Source: Kineosporiaceae bacterium | GTDB taxonomy: Bacteria > Actinomycetota > Actinomycetes > Actinomycetales > Kineosporiaceae | Reading direction: 5' to 3' | Length of the DNA stretch: 64,000 nucleotides | Assembly (NCBI GenBank): GCA_016794595.1 | Contig: JAEUJN010000075.1 | Coordinates: 1 to 64,000 of the forward strand | Shown: positions 11,367 to 19,236 of the stretch, in pieces | Position numbering within the stretch: the stretch's first letter is position 1 | Layout of the letters: each line of letters opens with the position of its first letter | Position numbers and translations under genes: made by a program | The notes under the pieces: generated by a model | Seen by the model: the letters and a program-made list of their open reading frames with translations, nothing else | Told to the model about the DNA's origin: nothing | Databases searched by the model: none

Positions 11367-11909
11367 GTGGTGCGTGGATGGCTGGTGGGCGTTGCGGGCG
11401 CCACTGCCCTCGCCGGCGGCCTCGTCCTGATGCCGGTGGCCTGGGCCGCCGTCCTGACCCCTCAGCCCGACGACCGGGTGATCGGTCCCGCTCTGGTGAT
11501 CGGTCCGGAGGGGTTGACGGTCACGGCCGACACCACGCCTGACTCTCCCCCGCCGACGGAGGCGGCCTCGGCGTCCGGGTCGTCTGGCGCGCCGACCGTG
11601 CCCACGCCGTCCGTCACCGTCGGGCCACGCGTCGCAGGCTCGGACCCCTCCGGCCTCCAGGGCGCGACGACGGGCGACCCGACCGCTGCCACCACCGTCG
11701 ACTCGGCGGCCACCACCCGGCCGACCTCGGCCCCGACCACGAGAGCCGCGGCGTCCGCGAGCGCGCCGGAGACCGTCCAGCCGTCTCGGGTACGGTCGGT
11801 CGAGCCCGCCGAGGACGAGCACGCGGAGGACGAGCACGACGAGGACGAGCACGCATCCTCGACCTCCTCGACCACCAACCGGTCGACCGAGCCGGACGAC
11901 GACCACTGA
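11367..11909 (+). CDS. Secreted Thr/Ser/Ala-rich protein with acidic His-containing tail
   Basis: The 180-residue product begins with a signal peptide or membrane anchor (about residues 1-28, ending in VAWAAVL). The rest is a disordered Thr/Ser/Pro/Ala-rich region ending in repeats EDEHAEDEHDEDEHASS. I recognise no family. The acidic His-spaced repeats could bind divalent metal ions. It lies 36 bp upstream of a sensor kinase gene on the same strand, and a similar acidic tail occurs in the protein encoded at 14450, so both may belong to one metal- or redox-sensing system. GTG start. Confidence 0.65.
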   Translation: MVRGWLVGVAGATALAGGLVLMPVAWAAVLTPQPDDRVIGPALVIGPEGLTVTADTTPDSPPPTEAASASGSSGAPTVPTPSVTVGPRVAGSDPSGLQGATTGDPTAATTVDSAATTRPTSAPTTRAAASASAPETVQPSRVRSVEPAEDEHAEDEHDEDEHASSTSSTTNRSTEPDDDH

Positions 11910-11945
11910 CCCGGAGTCTGCCCACCCGAGGGATCACCCACGGCC

Positions 11946-13421
11946 ATGACCGGTGAACGCCACCTGACCATCGGCGTCCGTGCCCGCATCATGTCCACGG
12001 TGCTGCTGCTGGCGGCGTTCGGCATGGCTCTGGCCGGTTCGGCGTCCACCGTCTTCGAACGGCGCCAACTGATCGACCATCTGGACGGCGTCCTGCTGGC
12101 CGATGTCACCCAGTTCCGGGTCGACGTGGCGGCCGATCCGAGCCGGCCGGTCAGCCAGATCCTGCGCGACACCCTGCAACGGCACGTCCCCACCGACGGG
12201 GAGGTTCTGGCCGGCCTGCTCGACGGCCATCCGGCCTTCGTCACCGCCGATCCCCGGCCGTTCGCGATCGAACGCGAGGGCGCACTGCTGGCCGACGTGG
12301 CCTCGATCGGCAGGGACGAGCCGTCGCGCATCCGGCAGGTCGAGACCTCCGTGGGTCCGGTGCGCCACGTGGTGGTCCAGGTCCGTTCCACCTCCGAGGC
12401 GGGGGCCGGTTCGCTGGTGATCGCCGTGAGTCTGCAACCGGTCCTCGATCAACTGGCCGACAGCGCTCGCCGGTACGCCGTCCTGGCCGGGGTCGCACTG
12501 GTCCTGATCGCGGTCGGAGGATGGTTGGTGGCCGGCCGCCTGCTGCGCCCGTTGCGGTTACTGCGCGAGGCAACCCAGGCGATCTCCCCCGACGATCTGA
12601 CCACCCGCATCCCGGTCACCGGGCGCGATGACGTCACCCAACTGACCCGCACGGTCAACGCCATGCTCGACCGGCTCGCCGACGCCTTCGACACCCAGCA
12701 GCAGTTCCTGGACGACGCGGGGCACGAGCTACGGACGCCGATCACGATCGTCCAGGGTCACCTCGAACTGTGTGACCCGACGGACCCCGACGAGGTGGCC
12801 TCGACCCACGCCCTGGTGCTCGACGAGCTCGACCGGATGGGACGGCTGGTGAACGACCTGATCGTGCTCGCCCAGGCGGGGCGGCCGGACTTCGTGCGGT
12901 TCGAGGTCGTCGACCTCGACCGTCTGCTGCGCGAGGTCTTCGACAAGGCCCAGGGACTGGCGGAGCGTCACTGGGTGCTCGACTCGACGGTGACGGCCCA
13001 CGTACTCGCCGACGCCCACCGGCTGACCCAGGCCCTGCTGCAGCTGACCGACAATGCCGTGCGGCACACCGGCCCGCAGGACGTGGTGGCCGTCGGCGGG
13101 GTGCTCTCGCGGGGGCAGGTGCAGTTGTGGGTTCGCGACAGCGGACCGGGGGTGTCCCCGCACGATGCGGAGCGGATCTTCGCCCGCTTCGGCCGGTCGG
13201 GCATGTCGCGTGGTGACTCGCACAACTCCGGACTGGGGCTGTCGATCGTGGCCGGGATCGCGGCCGCGCACGGGGGACGGGTCGAGCTGAGCCGTCCCAC
13301 CGACCCCCTGTCGGCCGGGTTCTCCCCCGAGCGGCCCGGGGCGCGGTTCACCTTGATCATGCCGTTGCGGGTCGTCGCCCACCCCCAACTCGCCTTCGGC
13401 GGCCAGGGGAGGTCGGTGTGA
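11946..13421 (+). CDS. Sensor histidine kinase (HAMP-HisKA-HATPase)
   Basis: The 491-residue membrane kinase has TM1 (about 15-35), an extracytoplasmic sensor region (about 36-168), TM2 (about 170-192), a HAMP linker, HisKA with DDAGHELRTPITIV (phospho-acceptor His260), and an HATPase domain with N-box QLTDNAVRHT, G1 DSGPGV and G2 GLGLSIVAGIAAAHGG. It should phosphorylate the response regulator whose GTG start overlaps its stop by 4 bp, but that gene carries a frameshift here. The signal is unknown. Neighbouring flavin, haem and ferredoxin genes suggest a redox or metal signal (inference). Confidence 0.93.
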   Translation: MTGERHLTIGVRARIMSTVLLLAAFGMALAGSASTVFERRQLIDHLDGVLLADVTQFRVDVAADPSRPVSQILRDTLQRHVPTDGEVLAGLLDGHPAFVTADPRPFAIEREGALLADVASIGRDEPSRIRQVETSVGPVRHVVVQVRSTSEAGAGSLVIAVSLQPVLDQLADSARRYAVLAGVALVLIAVGGWLVAGRLLRPLRLLREATQAISPDDLTTRIPVTGRDDVTQLTRTVNAMLDRLADAFDTQQQFLDDAGHELRTPITIVQGHLELCDPTDPDEVASTHALVLDELDRMGRLVNDLIVLAQAGRPDFVRFEVVDLDRLLREVFDKAQGLAERHWVLDSTVTAHVLADAHRLTQALLQLTDNAVRHTGPQDVVAVGGVLSRGQVQLWVRDSGPGVSPHDAERIFARFGRSGMSRGDSHNSGLGLSIVAGIAAAHGGRVELSRPTDPLSAGFSPERPGARFTLIMPLRVVAHPQLAFGGQGRSV

Positions 13422-14105
13422 GCAGGATCCTGGTGGCCGAGGACGAGGCCCGGATCGCCTCCTTCATCGACAAGGGGGCTGCGGGCCAGCGGGTACGCCG
13501 TCACGGTGGTCGGTGACGGCCCGGCCGCCTACGACGAGGCGATCAGCGGCACCCACGACCTGCTCGTGCTCGACATCGGGCTCCCGCTGCTGGACGGGTT
13601 CGCCGTCCTGAACAAGCTGCGCCGGGCGGGCAGTGCGCTGCCGGTGATCATCCTGACCGCCCGCACCGGCGTCCACGACACCGTGGCCGGACTGGAGAGC
13701 GGCGCGGACGACTACATGCCCAAGCCGTTCCGGTTCGAGGAGTTGCTCGCCCGGATCCGGTTGCGGTTGCGCTCGGAGGCGCGGGCACCCGAGCCGGCCG
13801 TGGTGCGCTACGGCGACCTGGTGCTGGATCCCGCGACCCGACGGGTGGTGGCCGGGGGGCGCCAGGTCGATCTGTCCGCCAGGGAGTACTCGCTGCTCGA
13901 GACCCTGATCCGGCACCCGGGCCAGGTGCTCAGCAGGGAACAGCTGTTGAGCCGGGTCTGGGGCTACGACTTCGATCCGGGGTCGAACGTGGTCGACGTG
14001 TACATCCGGTACCTGCGTCGCAAGGTCGGCGCCGAACGGATCGAGACCGTCCGCGGAGCGGGGTACCGGCTGCGGGACGTCACGCCGTGCGACGGCCAGT
14101 GCTGA
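13418..14105 (+). pseudogene. OmpR/PhoB-family response regulator, interrupted by a +1 frameshift
   Basis: The first part (GTG 13418) reads SRILVAEDEARIASFIDKG, the acidic-pocket start of a receiver domain. The frame is then lost at a run of five G (13474-13478) and continues one base later as LRASGYAVTVVGDG, the phospho-acceptor LLVLDIGLPLLDG, and a winged-helix DNA-binding domain ending VRGAGYRLRDV at 14105. Removing one G restores a normal regulator of about 228 residues. In the sequence as given, the second frame could only start internally (GTG 13506), giving a receiver without its acidic pair. It could be a sequencing error, a real inactivating mutation, or phase variation at the G-run. 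The upstream kinase is intact. Confidence 0.9.
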
Positions 14106-14322
14106 TCGAGCAGTAGACCACCTGGGCGATCACCGGGCGGCGACGCCCGGTGAGGAACCACAGGCCATCGAGCAGCCAGCGACGGCGAGCGGCCTGCGGC
14201 AGAACCGCGGCCTCGGCCACGATGGCCGAGGACCACTCCCGGTCGGCGGCCTCGCCGGTGGAGCCGACCCAGTCGATCAAGGCGTCGAGTGGTCGGCGTC
14301 GTGCCGGTCGGTGCGGGTCCAC
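14080..14322 (-). CDS. Small hypothetical protein (80 aa)
   Basis: The product has a tryptophan-containing helical core (LIDWVGSTGEA, RRRWLLDGLWFLTGRRRP) and no signal peptide. I do not recognise it. The GTG start (14320-14322) has a perfect GGAGG ribosome-binding site 5 bp upstream, which supports a real gene. Its 3' end overlaps the convergent response regulator by 26 bp, and it is divergent from the redox operon. Confidence 0.5.
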   Translation of the reverse strand: MDPHRPARRRPLDALIDWVGSTGEAADREWSSAIVAEAAVLPQAARRRWLLDGLWFLTGRRRPVIAQVVYCSISTGRRTA

Positions 14323-14359
14323 GGTGTCCTCCGTTCCGGGCCAGCTTGGCTGGGTTTTG

Positions 14360-14373
14360 TCTATCTAGATAGA
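14360..14373. promoter_or_regulatory. 14-bp perfect palindrome in divergent promoter region
   Basis: TCTATCTAGATAGA is a perfect palindrome in an AT-rich pocket of otherwise GC-rich DNA, between the divergent genes starting at 14322 (minus) and 14450 (plus). Position and symmetry fit an operator for a dimeric regulator. A second short palindrome, gagagctctc, lies at 14391-14400. Which regulator binds is unknown. Confidence 0.5.
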
Positions 14374-14449
14374 GATACTGCTCCGGAGATGAGAGCTCTC
14401 TCATTCCTGTCTCCCCAGGTTCCTCATGTGCGGAACCGACCCTGAGTAC

Positions 14450-15028
14450 ATGTCCATCACGCATGCGCACCGTGTCGGTGCGACCGCCGCTGCCGCCGCC
14501 GTCCTGCTGGGAGGTGCCGGCGCCGCCCTGCTGGCCACCACCGGGACGGCCACCGCCGCCCCCGCGACCACCGCGGACAGCGCTCAGAACGCACTGGCCC
14601 TGACGGCGGGCGCCACCACCGCCGCTGGCTCCCAGGAGCTCGAGGCGGCCCTCGGGCAACTGAGCGCCGAGAGCGAGCGGCTGACGGTCGAGGCGGACTC
14701 CCTGCGGGCGGAGATCGCCCGCCGGCAGGCGAGTGCCGCGGCGGCTCGGGTCGCGGCCGCCCAGGCGTCGGCTGCCGAGGCCGCGGCTGCCGAGGCCGCT
14801 GCTCAGGCACAGGCCCACGCACCGGGCGAGGCCCCAGAGCACTACCGGGCCGCCGCGAGCCAACCGGCCGCCGCTCCCGCCCCGGGCGGCGGCGCCGCCG
14901 AGGCGACCGCTGCGGCACCGACCTCCCATGCCACCACCGGCGCCAGCGGCTCGACCGGCTCCGAGCACGAGGACCACGACGAGGACGACAAGGGCGAGGA
15001 CCACGACGAGGACGGCGACGATGACTGA
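14450..15028 (+). CDS. Secreted coiled-coil protein with acidic His/Asp-rich tail
   Basis: The 192-residue product has a signal-peptide-like N-terminus (about residues 1-38), a short coiled coil (ELEAALGQLSAESERL, then AEIARRQ), an Ala-rich helix, and the tail EHEDHDEDDKGEDHDEDGD. It is the first gene of a run in which each stop overlaps the next start up to the ferredoxin. A TTGASGST stretch near residue 166 loosely resembles the [ST]GA[ST] core that ApbE flavinylates, but no FMN-bind fold is recognisable. I choose the ATG at 14450; the in-frame ATG at 14426 also lacks a clear ribosome-binding site. Confidence 0.65.
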   Translation: MSITHAHRVGATAAAAAVLLGGAGAALLATTGTATAAPATTADSAQNALALTAGATTAAGSQELEAALGQLSAESERLTVEADSLRAEIARRQASAAAARVAAAQASAAEAAAAEAAAQAQAHAPGEAPEHYRAAASQPAAAPAPGGGAAEATAAAPTSHATTGASGSTGSEHEDHDEDDKGEDHDEDGDDD

Positions 15029-15593
15029 TCGCCTCTCGACGGCCGAGCGGCTGCCCGGTGCCCCCGGGCCGTCCCGCCAGTCCCGGTGGTCGGTGGCTGC
15101 CCTGGTGGCTCCCGCCTCGGCGGCGGTCTTTGCCGGCAGCATGGGCTGGGCCGTGGCTCACCCGCCGGTGACCGCGTCGGTGGACACCGTCGCGCAGGCC
15201 GCGGCACCGGCGGCATCCTCGGGTGCTGTCGCCGCCTCGCCGGAGCCCGCCGCGGTGGACCCTGCCCTGGGGCAGCAGGTCGAGGAGCAGCTCGCCCAGG
15301 TGACCGCACTGCGCAGCCAGGTCGAGGAGTTGCGCTCCCAGGTGGCCGCCCTGGACGACGCCGCGACCACGGCCGGCGCAGCCACCGGGACGTCCCCACG
15401 GACCTCCACCGCGAGGTCCGCTGCGAAGTCGGCGGCCAAGTCCGCTGCACCAGCCCAGCAGGCTCCGGCCCAGCCGGTCGCCAAGCCTGCCCAGCCGGCC
15501 CCCGCTCAGCCGGCCCAGCAGCCCGCCCCCAAGCCTGCCCAGCCGGCGCCGCCCCCCGCTCCGGCCACCAACGGCAGCACGGGTGGATCGTGA
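15021..15593 (+). CDS. Membrane-anchored or secreted coiled-coil, Pro/Ala/Lys-rich protein
   Basis: The 190-residue protein has a hydrophobic segment (about 24-46, WSVAALVAPASAAVFAGSMG), a short coiled coil (VEEQLAQVTALRSQVEELRS), and a long AQPA/KPAQPAP-repeat tail typical of cell-wall-spanning linkers. No enzymatic domain is visible. It overlaps the preceding gene by 8 bp and shares GTGA with the following apbE gene, so it is translationally coupled to both. It may position components of the redox system in the envelope (inference). Confidence 0.65.
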   Translation: MTDRLSTAERLPGAPGPSRQSRWSVAALVAPASAAVFAGSMGWAVAHPPVTASVDTVAQAAAPAASSGAVAASPEPAAVDPALGQQVEEQLAQVTALRSQVEELRSQVAALDDAATTAGAATGTSPRTSTARSAAKSAAKSAAPAQQAPAQPVAKPAQPAPAQPAQQPAPKPAQPAPPPAPATNGSTGGS

Positions 15594-16648
15594 CCTCGCT
15601 GGCCGCCGTCGAGAGTTCTCCCTCCCCCACCGGTTCGTCAGCCGACCCACGGACGGGCCCCCCGTCGCCGATGGCGTGCCGGTTCCGGGCCATGAACACC
15701 GACATCACGATCCAGGTGACGGGTCCGGGGGCACAGGCCGAGCACCTGATCGACCAGGCCCGGCGCCTGTTCGCGCGGGTGGAGCTCGCGTGCACGCGGT
15801 TCGACCCCGACAGCGCGCTGATGCAGGCCAACCGGGCCGGTGAGTCGTGGGTCGAGGTCCCCTCCGAGTGCTACCTGGCCATCGCCGAGGCCGAGGGCGC
15901 CCACGTCGAGACCCAGGGCCTGTTCGACCCCCGGGTGCTCGAGACCCTCGTCGGGCTGGGCTACGACCGCACGCTGGCCTTCGGTGACGGGCCGGTGCGG
16001 CTGTCCAGCGGCACCCGTCCCGAGGGCATCCCACTGATACTTCCCTCGCCCGCCGCCGCGGCGGCCTCCTCGCGCCGGCCGCCGTGGACGCCGGGGCTGG
16101 ATCGCGCGCGGCGCGCGGTCCGGATCGGGCCGCTGCCCATCGACCTCGGCGGCATCGGCAAGGGCCTGGCGGTTCGCTGGGCCTCCCACCTGCTGGTCGA
16201 GGCGGGCGCCGGCCACCTGGTGGAGGCCGGTGGGGACTGTGCCCTGGCCGGCCCCAGCCCGGACGGTGGCCCGTGGCGGATCGGGGTGGAGGACCCGTTC
16301 GGCGGCGACCAGCCGGTCGCCGTCCTGGCACTGCACGACACTGCCGTGGCCACCTCCTCGTTGCGCAAGCGCACCTGGCAGCTGGACGGCCGGCAGGTCC
16401 ACCACCTGATCGACCCGCGGTCCGGGGCCTGCGTGGACGGCGGGCTGCGCTCGGTGACCGTGCTCGACACCGACGCGGCGCGCGCCGAGGTCTGGAGCAA
16501 GGCCCTGCTCGTCGCCGGACGGCGGCACATCGCCGAGCTGGCCACCGAGAAGGCCCTGCCCGCGCTGTGGGTGGACGACAGCGGCCGGTTGGCCGCCACC
16601 CCCGAACTGCACGAGACGATCATCTGGAGCTGTCGCGATGTCCACTGA
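15590..16648 (+). CDS. apbE: ApbE family FAD:protein FMN transferase
   Basis: The 352-residue product matches ApbE. It has FRAMNTDITIQV near residue 33, FARVELACTRFDPDSALMQAN, DLGGIGKGLAVRWASHLL, VEAGGDCALAG, and HHLIDPRSGACVDGGLRSVTVL with the metal-binding Asp. ApbE enzymes move FMN from FAD onto a Thr/Ser of extracytoplasmic electron-transfer proteins. No obvious lipoprotein signal is present, so the location is uncertain. The GTG start overlaps the previous stop (GTGA). Partners downstream are a haem-type ferric reductase, a NuoF-like protein and a ferredoxin; no FMN-bind acceptor is recognised in the window. Confidence 0.93.
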   Translation: MTSLAAVESSPSPTGSSADPRTGPPSPMACRFRAMNTDITIQVTGPGAQAEHLIDQARRLFARVELACTRFDPDSALMQANRAGESWVEVPSECYLAIAEAEGAHVETQGLFDPRVLETLVGLGYDRTLAFGDGPVRLSSGTRPEGIPLILPSPAAAAASSRRPPWTPGLDRARRAVRIGPLPIDLGGIGKGLAVRWASHLLVEAGAGHLVEAGGDCALAGPSPDGGPWRIGVEDPFGGDQPVAVLALHDTAVATSSLRKRTWQLDGRQVHHLIDPRSGACVDGGLRSVTVLDTDAARAEVWSKALLVAGRRHIAELATEKALPALWVDDSGRLAATPELHETIIWSCRDVH

Positions 16649-17444
16649 CCGCAGGCCGGACGACACGGCGCCCCTGACGCTGTTCCCCTCGGCTGCCTCC
16701 ATGTCCTCCGGGGGCTCGGTGTCCTCGGTGTCCTCGGTGGCAGCGCGCGGATTGCCTCACCGCCCGGCGGCGCTGGGCACGATCGCCCTGATCGCGGCGT
16801 CCACCGGCCTGACCGGTCGGCTGGTCGGCTGGGCCGCGTGGTCGGTCGCCGACGACAAGAACGCCCCGTGGATCCTCGGCCGGGCCTCTGGCGTGTGCGC
16901 CTACCTGTTGCTGGTCGCCCTGGTGGTGATGGGCCTGCTGCTCTCGCACCCGTGGCGCACCCGGTGGCGTCGACCGTCGCCGGTGGTCCGGATCCGGCTG
17001 CACGTCAGCCTGGCCATGTTCACCCTGGCCTTCCTCGTGCTGCACATCGTGGTCCTGGCCACGGACGAGTACGCGAAGGTGGGCTGGTGGGGTGCCCTGC
17101 TGCCCATGGCCTCGCAGTACCGGCCGGTGCCGGTGACCCTCGGGGTGATCGCGACCTACGGCGGGATCCTGGCCGGCGTGACCGCGTTGGCCGCCGGGCG
17201 ATGGGCGTGGCGGCTCTGGTGGCCGGTGCACAAGGTGGCCGTGCTCAGCCTCATCCTGGCCTGGCTGCACGGGGTGTTCACCGGCGTGGACACCCCTGCC
17301 CTGGGCTGGCTGTACGGCCTGACCGCTGCCCTGGTGCTCGCTCTCGCGGCGTCCCGGTACGTCACCCGGACGCCGGCGGACCTGGCGGCCGACCACGCCG
17401 AGGTCCACCCCGTGGACGGCGCCGAGTGGCGGAGCGTGGCATGA
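16638..17444 (+). CDS. Ferric reductase-like transmembrane protein (di-haem)
   Basis: The 268-residue protein has about six transmembrane helices (from residue 45 to 240). Two helices each carry a spaced His pair, RLHVSLAMFTLAFLVLHIVV and PVHKVAVLSLILAWLHGVF, the usual bis-haem b ligation of the FRE/NOX/YedZ fold. It lacks the FAD/NAD-binding domain of full ferric reductases, so electrons should come from a partner, plausibly the NuoF-like protein and ferredoxin encoded next. It overlaps apbE by 11 bp and shares ATGA with the next gene. The start at 16638 gives a Ser-rich cytoplasmic N-terminus. Confidence 0.87.
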   Translation: MSTDRRPDDTAPLTLFPSAASMSSGGSVSSVSSVAARGLPHRPAALGTIALIAASTGLTGRLVGWAAWSVADDKNAPWILGRASGVCAYLLLVALVVMGLLLSHPWRTRWRRPSPVVRIRLHVSLAMFTLAFLVLHIVVLATDEYAKVGWWGALLPMASQYRPVPVTLGVIATYGGILAGVTALAAGRWAWRLWWPVHKVAVLSLILAWLHGVFTGVDTPALGWLYGLTAALVLALAASRYVTRTPADLAADHAEVHPVDGAEWRSVA

Positions 17445-18964
17445 CCCACCCCGCTGCCCGGCGCAGGTCGATCGCCGGGGCGCGACCCTTGCGCCTCGCC
17501 CCCGACGTGACCCGGGCCCTGCCGCTCGGTGTCCCGGACGGCGACCAGCCGGCCACCCAGGGGCCGGACCGGCACCTGTTGGGGGCCGAGGTCTACTACC
17601 GGGCCGCCCAGCGCGATGTGCTGCACGGTCCGACGACCGAGGGACTCGGCGTTCACCTGGCCCGGGTCGGCCCGATGCCATCGGCCCTCGGGGGCGCCGG
17701 CGGCCAGTTGCTGCAGATCGTCGACGAGGTGGGTCTGACCGGCCGGGGTGGGGCGCACTTCCCGGTGGCGGCCAAGTGGCGCTCGACCATCACCGCCGTG
17801 CAGGAGCGGCACGTCCGCCGACGGATCCGCGGCGGTCGAGGTGAGAGCGCCCCCGGCGAGGTACTCGTGGTGGCCAATGGCGCCGAGGGGGAGCCCGCCA
17901 GCGCCAAGGACGCCGCGCTGCTCCAGCACCGTCCGCACCTCGTCCTCGACGGCCTGGTCGCCGTCGCCGAGGTGGTCGGGGCCGACGCCGGCGTCGTGTG
18001 GCTGCACGAGTCCGCCGACCAGACCCGGCAGGCCGTCGCCCGGGCGCTGGCCGAGCGGCGCGCGGCCCGGCACGATTCGGTGCCGATCAGCCTGGCCACC
18101 GGACCGGATCGCTACCTGACCGGTGAGGCCAATGCCGTGGTGCAGGCGCTGGACGGCGGCCCCGCAGTGCCGTGGTTCCGCACCGTGCCGGCGGCTCAGG
18201 GGGGCGGCGTCGACGGCCAGCCGACCCTGGTGCACAACGTCGAGACCCTCGCCCGCACGGCCCTGCTGGCCCGTACCGGGGTGCCGACCGAGGCCTCGGG
18301 TCCGGCGGGAGGCGTGCTGACCAGCGTCCTGGGACGGCTGACCTCGGGGCAGGCGGTGATCACCGTGCGGGAACTGCCGCCGCAGTGCACCGTGGCGGAC
18401 GCCGTCCTGGACCGGTACGGCCACGAGGTCGCGCCGCGCGCCGTCCTGATCGGGGGTTACGGAGGCACCTGGTTGAGCTGGGAGGAGGCCGCCGACCTCA
18501 CCCTCGGGCGGCTCGACCGGCGCCGGGCCCCGGGTGCCGGGCTCCTGCCCGGCGAGGTGACCCTGGGTGCCGGCGTGCTGGCAGCCCTGCCGGCCGACGC
18601 GTGCGGGGTGGCCGAGACAGCCTCTGTCGCAACGTATCTGGCCGACTCGAGTGCCCGGCAGTGCGGCCCGTGCCTGTTCGGCACGCGTGCACTCGCCGAG
18701 CTCTGGACCCGGATCGCCCAGGGTCGGGCCCGGCGTGGGGACGAGCAGGAGCTCGCGCGGATCTCGGCCCAACTGGTCAGACGAGGGGCCTGTGCCCTGC
18801 CGGACGCCGCGGTGAACCTCACCCTGTCGGCCGCCCGGGTCTTCGCGGACGACGTGCGTGGTCACCTGGCCGGCGCCGGCTGCGTCCGGGGCTGCCGGGC
18901 GGGGTCGGCTGCCGGCCCGGCGGAGGCCTGGTCCACCGTGCTGCCGGTCCCGAGGTCGGCGTGA
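17441..18964 (+). CDS. NuoF/RnfC-like NADH-dehydrogenase flavoprotein subunit
   Basis: The 507-residue product has NuoF-type motifs: VGLTGRGGAHFPVAAKW (FMN/NADH-binding glycine loop), VVANGAEGEPASAKD, YLTGEANAVVQALDGG, PTLVHNVETLA, and ARQCGPCLFGTRAL in place of the SxxCGxCxPCR Fe-S motif. Only two of the usual cluster cysteines are in that stretch, with CALP and two Cys near the C-terminus elsewhere, so the cluster may be altered. It likely oxidises NAD(P)H and passes electrons to the ferredoxin encoded next. ATGA overlap with the upstream gene, TGATG junction with the downstream one. Confidence 0.87.
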   Translation: MTHPAARRRSIAGARPLRLAPDVTRALPLGVPDGDQPATQGPDRHLLGAEVYYRAAQRDVLHGPTTEGLGVHLARVGPMPSALGGAGGQLLQIVDEVGLTGRGGAHFPVAAKWRSTITAVQERHVRRRIRGGRGESAPGEVLVVANGAEGEPASAKDAALLQHRPHLVLDGLVAVAEVVGADAGVVWLHESADQTRQAVARALAERRAARHDSVPISLATGPDRYLTGEANAVVQALDGGPAVPWFRTVPAAQGGGVDGQPTLVHNVETLARTALLARTGVPTEASGPAGGVLTSVLGRLTSGQAVITVRELPPQCTVADAVLDRYGHEVAPRAVLIGGYGGTWLSWEEAADLTLGRLDRRRAPGAGLLPGEVTLGAGVLAALPADACGVAETASVATYLADSSARQCGPCLFGTRALAELWTRIAQGRARRGDEQELARISAQLVRRGACALPDAAVNLTLSAARVFADDVRGHLAGAGCVRGCRAGSAAGPAEAWSTVLPVPRSA

Positions 18965-19236
18965 TGGCGAGCCCGGATGCCCGGTCGTCCCGGCGTCCCG
19001 ACCGCGGCGGGCAGGATCGTGGCGGGCAGGATCGTGGGCGGGACACCCACCGGGTCAGGGTCAACCCGATCGCGTGCGAGGGCATCGGCATGTGTGCCCA
19101 CCTGGCCCCGGACGTGATCGTGGTGGACGACTGGGGTTACCCGATGCCGGCGACGCGTGACCTGGACCGGCGCGAGGTTCGCGCCGTCCGGTCGGCGATC
19201 GCGGCCTGCCCCCGGCGTGCCCTCTTCCTCACGTGA
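18964..19236 (+). CDS. Single-cluster ferredoxin (3Fe-4S type)
   Basis: The 90-residue protein has only three cysteines, Cys38, Cys44 (CEGIGMC) and Cys82 (CP), the pattern of actinobacterial 3Fe-4S ferredoxins in which the second ligand of a 4Fe-4S motif is missing. A basic/Gln repeat RGGQDRGGQDRGRD precedes the domain. It should carry single electrons from the NuoF-like protein to the haem membrane protein or another acceptor. ATG 18964 forms TGATG with the upstream stop; GTG 18961 is also in frame. Last gene of the coupled run starting at 14450. Confidence 0.88.
   Translation: MASPDARSSRRPDRGGQDRGGQDRGRDTHRVRVNPIACEGIGMCAHLAPDVIVVDDWGYPMPATRDLDRREVRAVRSAIAACPRRALFLT

Follow-up and report, generated by a model that had tools for sequence, protein, structure and literature searches.

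We analyzed a window of 64,000 nucleotides from a Kineosporiaceae bacterium (GenBank assembly GCA_016794595.1, contig JAEUJN010000075.1, positions 1 to 64,000 of the forward strand) and focused on a redox cassette of six genes (14450 to 19236), in which each gene shares 1 to 11 bases with the next. The last four encode a putative flavin mononucleotide (FMN) transferase of the ApbE family, an FRD/MsrQ-like membrane protein, a NuoF-like protein, and a ferredoxin. We conclude that this cassette probably uses as its flavin acceptor not an FMN_bind protein but a disordered one that is anchored in the membrane or exported and whose tail bears a flavinylation motif. The window would encode two such proteins, here called the 14450 and 15021 products after the starts of their genes. 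The computed evidence consists of the gene content, the conservation of the tails, the lack, in many cassette genomes, of the acceptors that were searched for, and a matching change at the metal site of ApbE. An earlier note on this DNA had listed ApbE, a heme reductase, a NuoF-like protein, and a ferredoxin among six overlapping genes, which Pfam matches and gene ends bore out. Its suggestion that the 14450 and 15021 products may be unconventional flavin carriers is favored by our comparisons with related genomes. The features of the cassette are as follows.

14450..15028, + strand: first proposed flavin carrier (hydrophobic N terminus, low-complexity chain, HATTGAS, acidic and His-rich tail ending in DDD; no Pfam or NCBIfam family)
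14927..14947, + strand: HATTGAS in the 14450 product (TTGAS at 14933-14947; candidate flavin site, Ser166)
15021..15593, + strand: second proposed flavin carrier (hydrophobic N terminus, predicted helix at residues 81 to 121, low-confidence remainder read as disordered, conserved C terminus)
15576..15590, + strand: STGGS, the C-terminal end of the 15021 product (five residues; candidate flavin site, Ser190)
15590..16648, + strand: putative ApbE-family FMN transferase, variant (GTG start; Pfam ApbE, 4e-51)
16638..17444, + strand: FRD/MsrQ-like membrane protein (Ferric_reduct, 1.2e-5; two conserved His pairs)
17441..18964, + strand: NuoF-like NADH/FMN/4Fe-4S protein (Complex1_51K, 4e-28; NADH_4Fe-4S, 9e-17)
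18964..19236, + strand: single-cluster ferredoxin (Fer4_15, 9e-8) with three Cys, as expected for the 3Fe-4S type

The two proteins in the slot upstream of ApbE had no Pfam family at an E value of <0.01, no NCBIfam family, and no PF04205 (FMN_bind) domain. A hidden FMN_bind or other domain was sought and set aside, since nothing consistent appeared: nine Pfam families each weakly matched 1 of 40 members, with a best E value of 0.001. An AlphaFold2 model of the 15021 product (single sequence, no fold search made) had a mean predicted local distance difference test score of 59 and one confident helix, at residues 81 to 121. The ApbE substrate motif is described as D-x-x-[ST]-G-A-[ST], in which changing the Asp to Ala had no more than minor effects in a published test (PMC12052999). 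HATTGAS of the 14450 product fits [ST]GA[ST] without the Asp, and the TTGAS that the earlier note had seen there was confirmed at residues 162 to 166. The 15021 product ends in NGSTGGS, with Gly for Ala and without the Asp. Judging from its homologues, the 15021 product, with its candidate site at the extreme C terminus, is the more widely conserved of the two putative carriers.

The ApbE of the window matched PF02424 with 174.5 bits (cut-off, 25.6) and 13 PDB sequences. It retains the catalytic residues Ser256 and His272 as well as Asp113, Lys191, and Asp216, which are also conserved in cassette ApbEs. However, it carries Glu300 and Lys304 where the four solved ApbEs that we aligned have the metal-binding Asp and Thr. 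Most other cassette ApbEs have Asn and Thr at this site, and the Asp was replaced in all cassette ApbEs scored. The window ApbE thus appears to be a noncanonical member of the family and a putative transferase. Below, ApbEs are typed by the residue at the Asp site (N, G, E, or D type).

Across actinomycetes, a short gene lies immediately upstream of the cassette apbE; its product has a hydrophobic stretch at the N terminus and then a linker rich in Thr, Pro/Ala, Gly/Ser, or Gln. We chose these carriers for our counts by position, hydrophobicity, and composition and did not use their ends as a criterion. For six ApbEs (L046, L072, L083, L135, L144, and L184), no carrier was picked; by eye, L046 and L083 have carriers ending in SSGS, and SRGS is found upstream of FRD at L072. 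Among the 58 distinct carriers, a Ser end was found in all 52 with N-type ApbEs, the single one with a G-type ApbE, 1 of 3 with E-type ApbEs, and 1 of 2 with frame-disrupted ApbEs. After a 4-mer redundancy filter, the N- and G-type carriers all ended in Ser (47/47) and all had [ST] at position −4 and Gly, Ala, or Ser at position −2 (47/47). Ser ends were rare in other proteins of the same loci (ApbE, 5/43; FRD, 5/43; NuoF, 8/42). The chance probability for the Ser ends is 10 to the −35, but this assumes independent rows, which these rows are not. Rather, the weight of the argument rests on the persistence of the tails while the linkers diverge: with the tails excluded, 82 of 1,081 linker pairs shared a 6-mer. 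In an alignment of 40 carriers (the window and 39 of 51 references, with 12 near copies excluded), the mean column identity was 18%, and the only nearly invariant column was the last residue, Ser190 of the 15021 product. Two Streptomyces carriers end in DSTSGAS, a full fit to the published motif, and Kineosporia-type carriers end in DATSGGS.

With the window ApbE as the query, a search of 394 genomes from this class yielded 20 close loci (L204 to L223). With L036, L037, L198, and the window's own copy (L203), these make up the window clade, in which both slot genes were present at 22 of 24 loci. After filtering, 16 of 21 homologues of the 15021 product had [ST]G[AG]S in their final eight residues (expected, 0.1 by residue shuffling and 0.3 by a first-order Markov model). 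[ST]GA[ST] was present in 14 of 22 homologues of the 14450 product (expected, 1.7 under either null), and 20 of the 22 ended in Asp-Asp. As controls, we counted six distinct permuted orders of the motif in the 14450 homologues; four were at or near chance (1, 2, 2, and 4 of 22). Two exceeded it, A[ST]G[ST] (8/22) and [ST][ST]GA (12/22), probably because both overlap the tail TTGASGS. Conservation thus supports the guess in the earlier note that these two products fill the acceptor slot: many homologues of each have retained a motif of the flavinylation type in a chain that is otherwise not conserved. A strict rule of a C-terminal Ser for every non-Asp ApbE was ruled out by this clade, which has up to four residues past the motif.

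The type of ApbE was also matched to its genomic partner. In 20 genomes, we found 44 ApbEs (split matches merged by hand), comprising 27 of N or E type, 14 of D type, 1 of Thr type, and 2 that were unscorable. Of the N- and E-type ApbEs, 25 of 27 lay directly downstream of a carrier, the remaining two (G074 and G075) lay apart from theirs, and none was inside an FMN_bind cluster. In contrast, 10 of the 14 D-type ApbEs were in an FMN_bind cluster, and none directly followed a carrier; three others adjoin lipoprotein-like open reading frames (ORFs) that we read as FMN_bind-like (one passes the PF04205 cut-off), and one had no visible partner. Fisher's P for 25 versus 10 is 5e-9, an overstatement given the few evolutionary events involved.

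The carriers likewise tracked the FRD subfamilies. The core of FRD, NuoF, and ferredoxin recurs in Kineosporia, Nocardioides, Arthrobacter, Mycobacterium, Rhodococcus, Streptomyces, Actinomadura, and others, with at least 80 NuoF-like loci from GTDB genomes; a NuoF-like protein was matched in 42 of 58 relatives, a count that includes respiratory NuoF. ApbE accompanies one FRD subfamily and not another. At ApbE-less loci of the second subfamily, a carrier-like gene within 500 bases upstream was found at 0 of 29 loci with room for one (0 of 30 overall). At ApbE-less loci of the first subfamily, a carrier was found at 5 of 5 with room (6 of 7 overall).

We suggest that the cassette ApbE would take FMN from flavin adenine dinucleotide (FAD) and attach it to one or both of the motifs, HATTGAS (at its Ser) and STGGS (at its C-terminal Ser). 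The window clade would have two carriers, each with its own kind of tail, working side by side. Electrons would pass from NAD(P)H to the FMN and Fe-S centers of the NuoF-like protein, to the ferredoxin, to the two hemes of FRD, and then to the tethered FMN, which would reduce an acceptor outside the cytoplasm, for instance Fe(III) or a quinone. It is important to note that we infer the attachment of the flavin, the position of the tail outside the membrane, the direction of flow, and the final acceptor from sequence and gene order. Lys and Arg were more numerous before the hydrophobic stretch than after it in 55 of 56 carriers, and the remaining carrier was a tie; a topology with the N terminus inside and the C terminus outside is therefore likely. 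By a crude hydrophobicity scan, neither the cassette ApbEs nor the FMN_bind-linked ApbEs had an evident signal peptide. A strong stretch before the ApbE domain was hit in 3 of 69 and 1 of 60 cases; as we read them, all lie upstream of the likely start, in the region overlapped by the carrier gene. Because no signal peptide is evident, the cassette ApbE may act in the cytoplasm, and given the apparent orientation of the carriers, FMN would be added there and the tail exported afterward. Experiments cited in a review suggest that the Sec channel can widen to ∼22 Å (PMC5963308), so FMN on an unfolded tail could pass.

A more specific version of this mechanism, which we hold to be doubtful though worth serious thought, is that in the N-type ApbEs the lost carboxylate is supplied by the C-terminal carboxylate of the substrate, with the flavin attached in the cytoplasm and threaded out on the disordered chain. 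Such sharing would account for the fact that carriers of N- and G-type ApbEs end exactly in Ser (53/53 distinct carriers, the frame-disrupted L067 excepted), and E-type enzymes, which keep a carboxylate, could allow up to four residues after the motif. If true, a covalent cofactor would be exported without any folded domain.

Several observations weigh against a flavinylated carrier. At L067, where an N-type ApbE is frame disrupted, the carrier ends in SGGSHP. The carriers use Ser, and published ApbEs favor Thr over Ser (PMC12052999). Exact motifs were absent from the tails of both slot proteins at 6 of 22 window-clade loci (L211, L221, L222, L036, L037, and L198), with variants such as THAS, TAGS, KASG, RASG, and SAGSGG in their place; two of these loci, L036 and L037, share the gene order of the window. 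When 91 ApbEs were placed on a tree, all N-type sequences grouped in a single clade together with one G-type sequence. The E-type sequences were split three ways, with 13 in the window clade, 5 in another group, and a pair on the D side. Because the N-type ApbEs form one clade, the correlation between carrier and ApbE type appears to reflect few events, long kept. Four Arthrobacter loci (L076, L081, L113, and L116) have an FMN_bind gene ∼5.5 kb downstream of the cassette ApbE, in clusters that start ∼5 kb downstream of it and have no ApbE of their own. The apparent side of ApbE (cytoplasmic) differs from that of the tail (extracytoplasmic). Lastly, the cassette ApbEs may be weak or inactive because they have lost the Asp that, in FmnB (Asp301), binds both Mg ions; Ala at such ligands greatly reduced or abolished activity (PMC8906456).

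This last point leads to a rival that we regard as distinctly unlikely, namely, that the cassette ApbE is a pseudo-transferase, serving as a cytosolic FAD-bearing subunit between the ferredoxin and the heme, to which the tail docks without being modified. The general loss of the metal-site Asp would fit, as would the lack of an evident signal peptide and, in the window clade, a Lys304 that would occupy the metal site. Further, FAD binding by the ApbE of Vibrio cholerae is reported not to need divalent cations and to persist in an inactive His mutant (PMC5655446). However, the catalytic Ser and His and the three other conserved residues are all retained, and the tails match the transfer motif itself, some of them exactly, which docking alone would not need.

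Much less probable is that the target of the cassette ApbE is an FMN_bind protein from another locus, with the slot proteins as scaffolds or sensors. The earlier note had seen no FMN acceptor; this stood for the cassette, in which a Pfam scan of nine proteins found no FMN_bind, but the genome-wide search that it called for found two FMN_bind genes outside the cassette. One, at C47, lies between an FRD-FNR fusion and a second ApbE. The other, at C120 (L003, C120:42870), had no ApbE match within the 14 kb examined, as this rival would have it; judging from its HAMP-type sequence, an adjoining ORF may encode a chemoreceptor-like protein. FMN_bind genes also occur in 14 of the 20 window-clade genomes, and the Arthrobacter clusters described above lie near the cassette. 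Nevertheless, no FMN_bind match was found in 11 of 19 named cassette genomes (completeness not stated), all 19 of which have ApbE, or in 6 of the 20 window-clade genomes, five of these six being at least 95% complete. An FMN_bind partner that is always coinherited with the cassette, which the earlier note had named as a refutation, is ruled out by these genomes. Moreover, FMN_bind clusters usually have their own D-type ApbE, and the conserved tails would stay unexplained. One of the 11 named genomes with no FMN_bind match, Mycolicibacterium litorale F4 (CP019882, titled as a complete genome), has a single ApbE, of N type, which lies apart from the carrier; the carrier precedes the FRD gene. 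We also dropped DUF2271 and NqrB/RnfD as acceptors: DUF2271 was matched in 0 of the 19 named genomes (DUF3570, Flavodoxin_4, and FMN_red were not searched for), and NqrB/RnfD exceeded the cut-off in 0 of 20 genomes, with two subthreshold NqrB-like matches in Arthrobacter.

That the C-terminal Ser and Gly are a by-product of translational coupling (a ribosome-binding site and start/stop overlap for apbE) is hardly credible. In its favor, nearly all carriers stop with TGA, in many cases overlapping or directly adjoining the start of apbE; GGAGGT is present in Kineosporia-type ends; and 45 of 47 carriers encode the last Ser by TCN. Nevertheless, coupling was judged insufficient because the ApbE, FRD, and NuoF of the same tightly packed loci have no Ser bias and the Ser ending is kept in 6 of 7 carriers that precede FRD rather than apbE, and, further, the penultimate Gly uses all four codons, TSSS and TSAS ends have no ribosome-binding-like run, and the motif of the 14450 product is internal to its gene.

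The cassette resembles the MsrQ-like flavinylation clusters of Actinobacteria described by Méheust et al. (2021, PMC8238504). In 31 of their 1,797 clusters, the fused NAD-binding domain is reported to be replaced by a NuoF-like PF10589 protein. In the window, too, ApbE adjoins a di-heme PF01794 membrane protein, and a NuoF-like (PF10589) gene is present. The FRD protein scored 25.8 bits for Ferric_reduct, below the 28-bit cut-off, but we counted it as di-heme given its four conserved His (pairs 122/136 and 198/211), every one of which is kept in 19 of 19 aligned relatives. In contrast to the clusters as described in PMC8238504, where FMN_bind is typical though not required, domain-less proteins fill the slot, and the metal site of ApbE is altered. 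As in the FMN_red proteins of PMC10979944, the motif lies on an unstructured C-terminal extension, and the genes are linked to ApbE; there, however, the extension serves a folded flavin-binding domain, and we found no such fold here. With the FMN_bind (PF04205) carriers NqrC, RnfG, and PplA, the slot proteins would share an extracytoplasmic covalent FMN placed on Ser or Thr by an ApbE-family protein, but they lack PF04205, are unconserved except for the tail, and have the motif at or near the C terminus or ahead of an acidic tail. The closest parallel in form is the Flavin-tag, in which a short terminal motif is the entire acceptor: a seven-residue tag is enough for ApbE and works best at a terminus (PMC12052999). 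That tag is an engineered tool, whereas we propose a natural counterpart with a dedicated ApbE.

In the open-license literature, we found no description of a domain-less or C-terminal disordered ApbE substrate. The MsrQ-like/NuoF-like cluster type and a motif on an unstructured FMN_red extension are already known. On our best reading, the carriers would form a new class of ApbE substrate, with flavin on a disordered chain. Domain models cannot detect a carrier in which everything but the tag is disordered. In the survey of Méheust et al. (2021, PMC8238504), 670 genomes (4%) have ApbE and no known substrate, and the authors state that less prevalent substrates have yet to be identified; carriers of this kind could explain part of the substrate-less ApbE genomes in Actinomycetota. 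They also give a large ApbE subfamily, one in which a residue described as catalytic is missing, a substrate that can be tested directly. If the proposal is true, a tethered covalent flavin can carry electrons without a flavin-binding fold.

Some ApbEs and loci fell outside these patterns. The ApbE-like protein of L184 (Kineosporia rhizophila) has Thr in place of the Asp and Tyr in place of the His and looks dead. L225, L226, L228, and L230 are E/K-type ApbEs without FRD matches that adjoin putative lipoproteins, all four of which end in Ser; those at L225, L226, and L228 contain CSGAS or CSGPS. These lipoproteins are a possible further substrate class. L227 and L231 are Glu-type ApbEs that keep the Thr and lie near FRD/FNR matches, with an upstream protein ending in TTYTRGS; located on the D side of the tree, they are perhaps an independent case. 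The window's genome also has a second NuoF cassette, on C17 (C17:52069), and a D-type ApbE with no FMN_bind in view (L181, C17:42180) lies ∼9 kb before it.

Three further genes precede the carriers in the window.

11367..11909, + strand: Ser/Thr-rich protein with an N-terminal hydrophobic stretch and an acidic, His-rich end (Pfam and NCBIfam matches uninformative)
11946..13421, + strand: sensor histidine kinase (Pfam HAMP, HisKA, and HATPase_c)
13418..14105, + strand: OmpR-type response regulator (Response_reg and Trans_reg_C; Pfam match at 13506-14102)

The earlier note had described two-component genes here. The kinase is as described, but the reading frame of the regulator is disrupted: it begins with GTG at 13418, and the remainder lies in a different frame, with the change at a run of five G's (13474-13478), which is either an assembly error or a real lesion. 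The product of 11367-11909 is perhaps outside the redox system. We saw no [ST]GA[ST] in it by eye. Its acidic, His-rich end resembles that of the 14450 product, and it might bind metal or provide input to the sensor.

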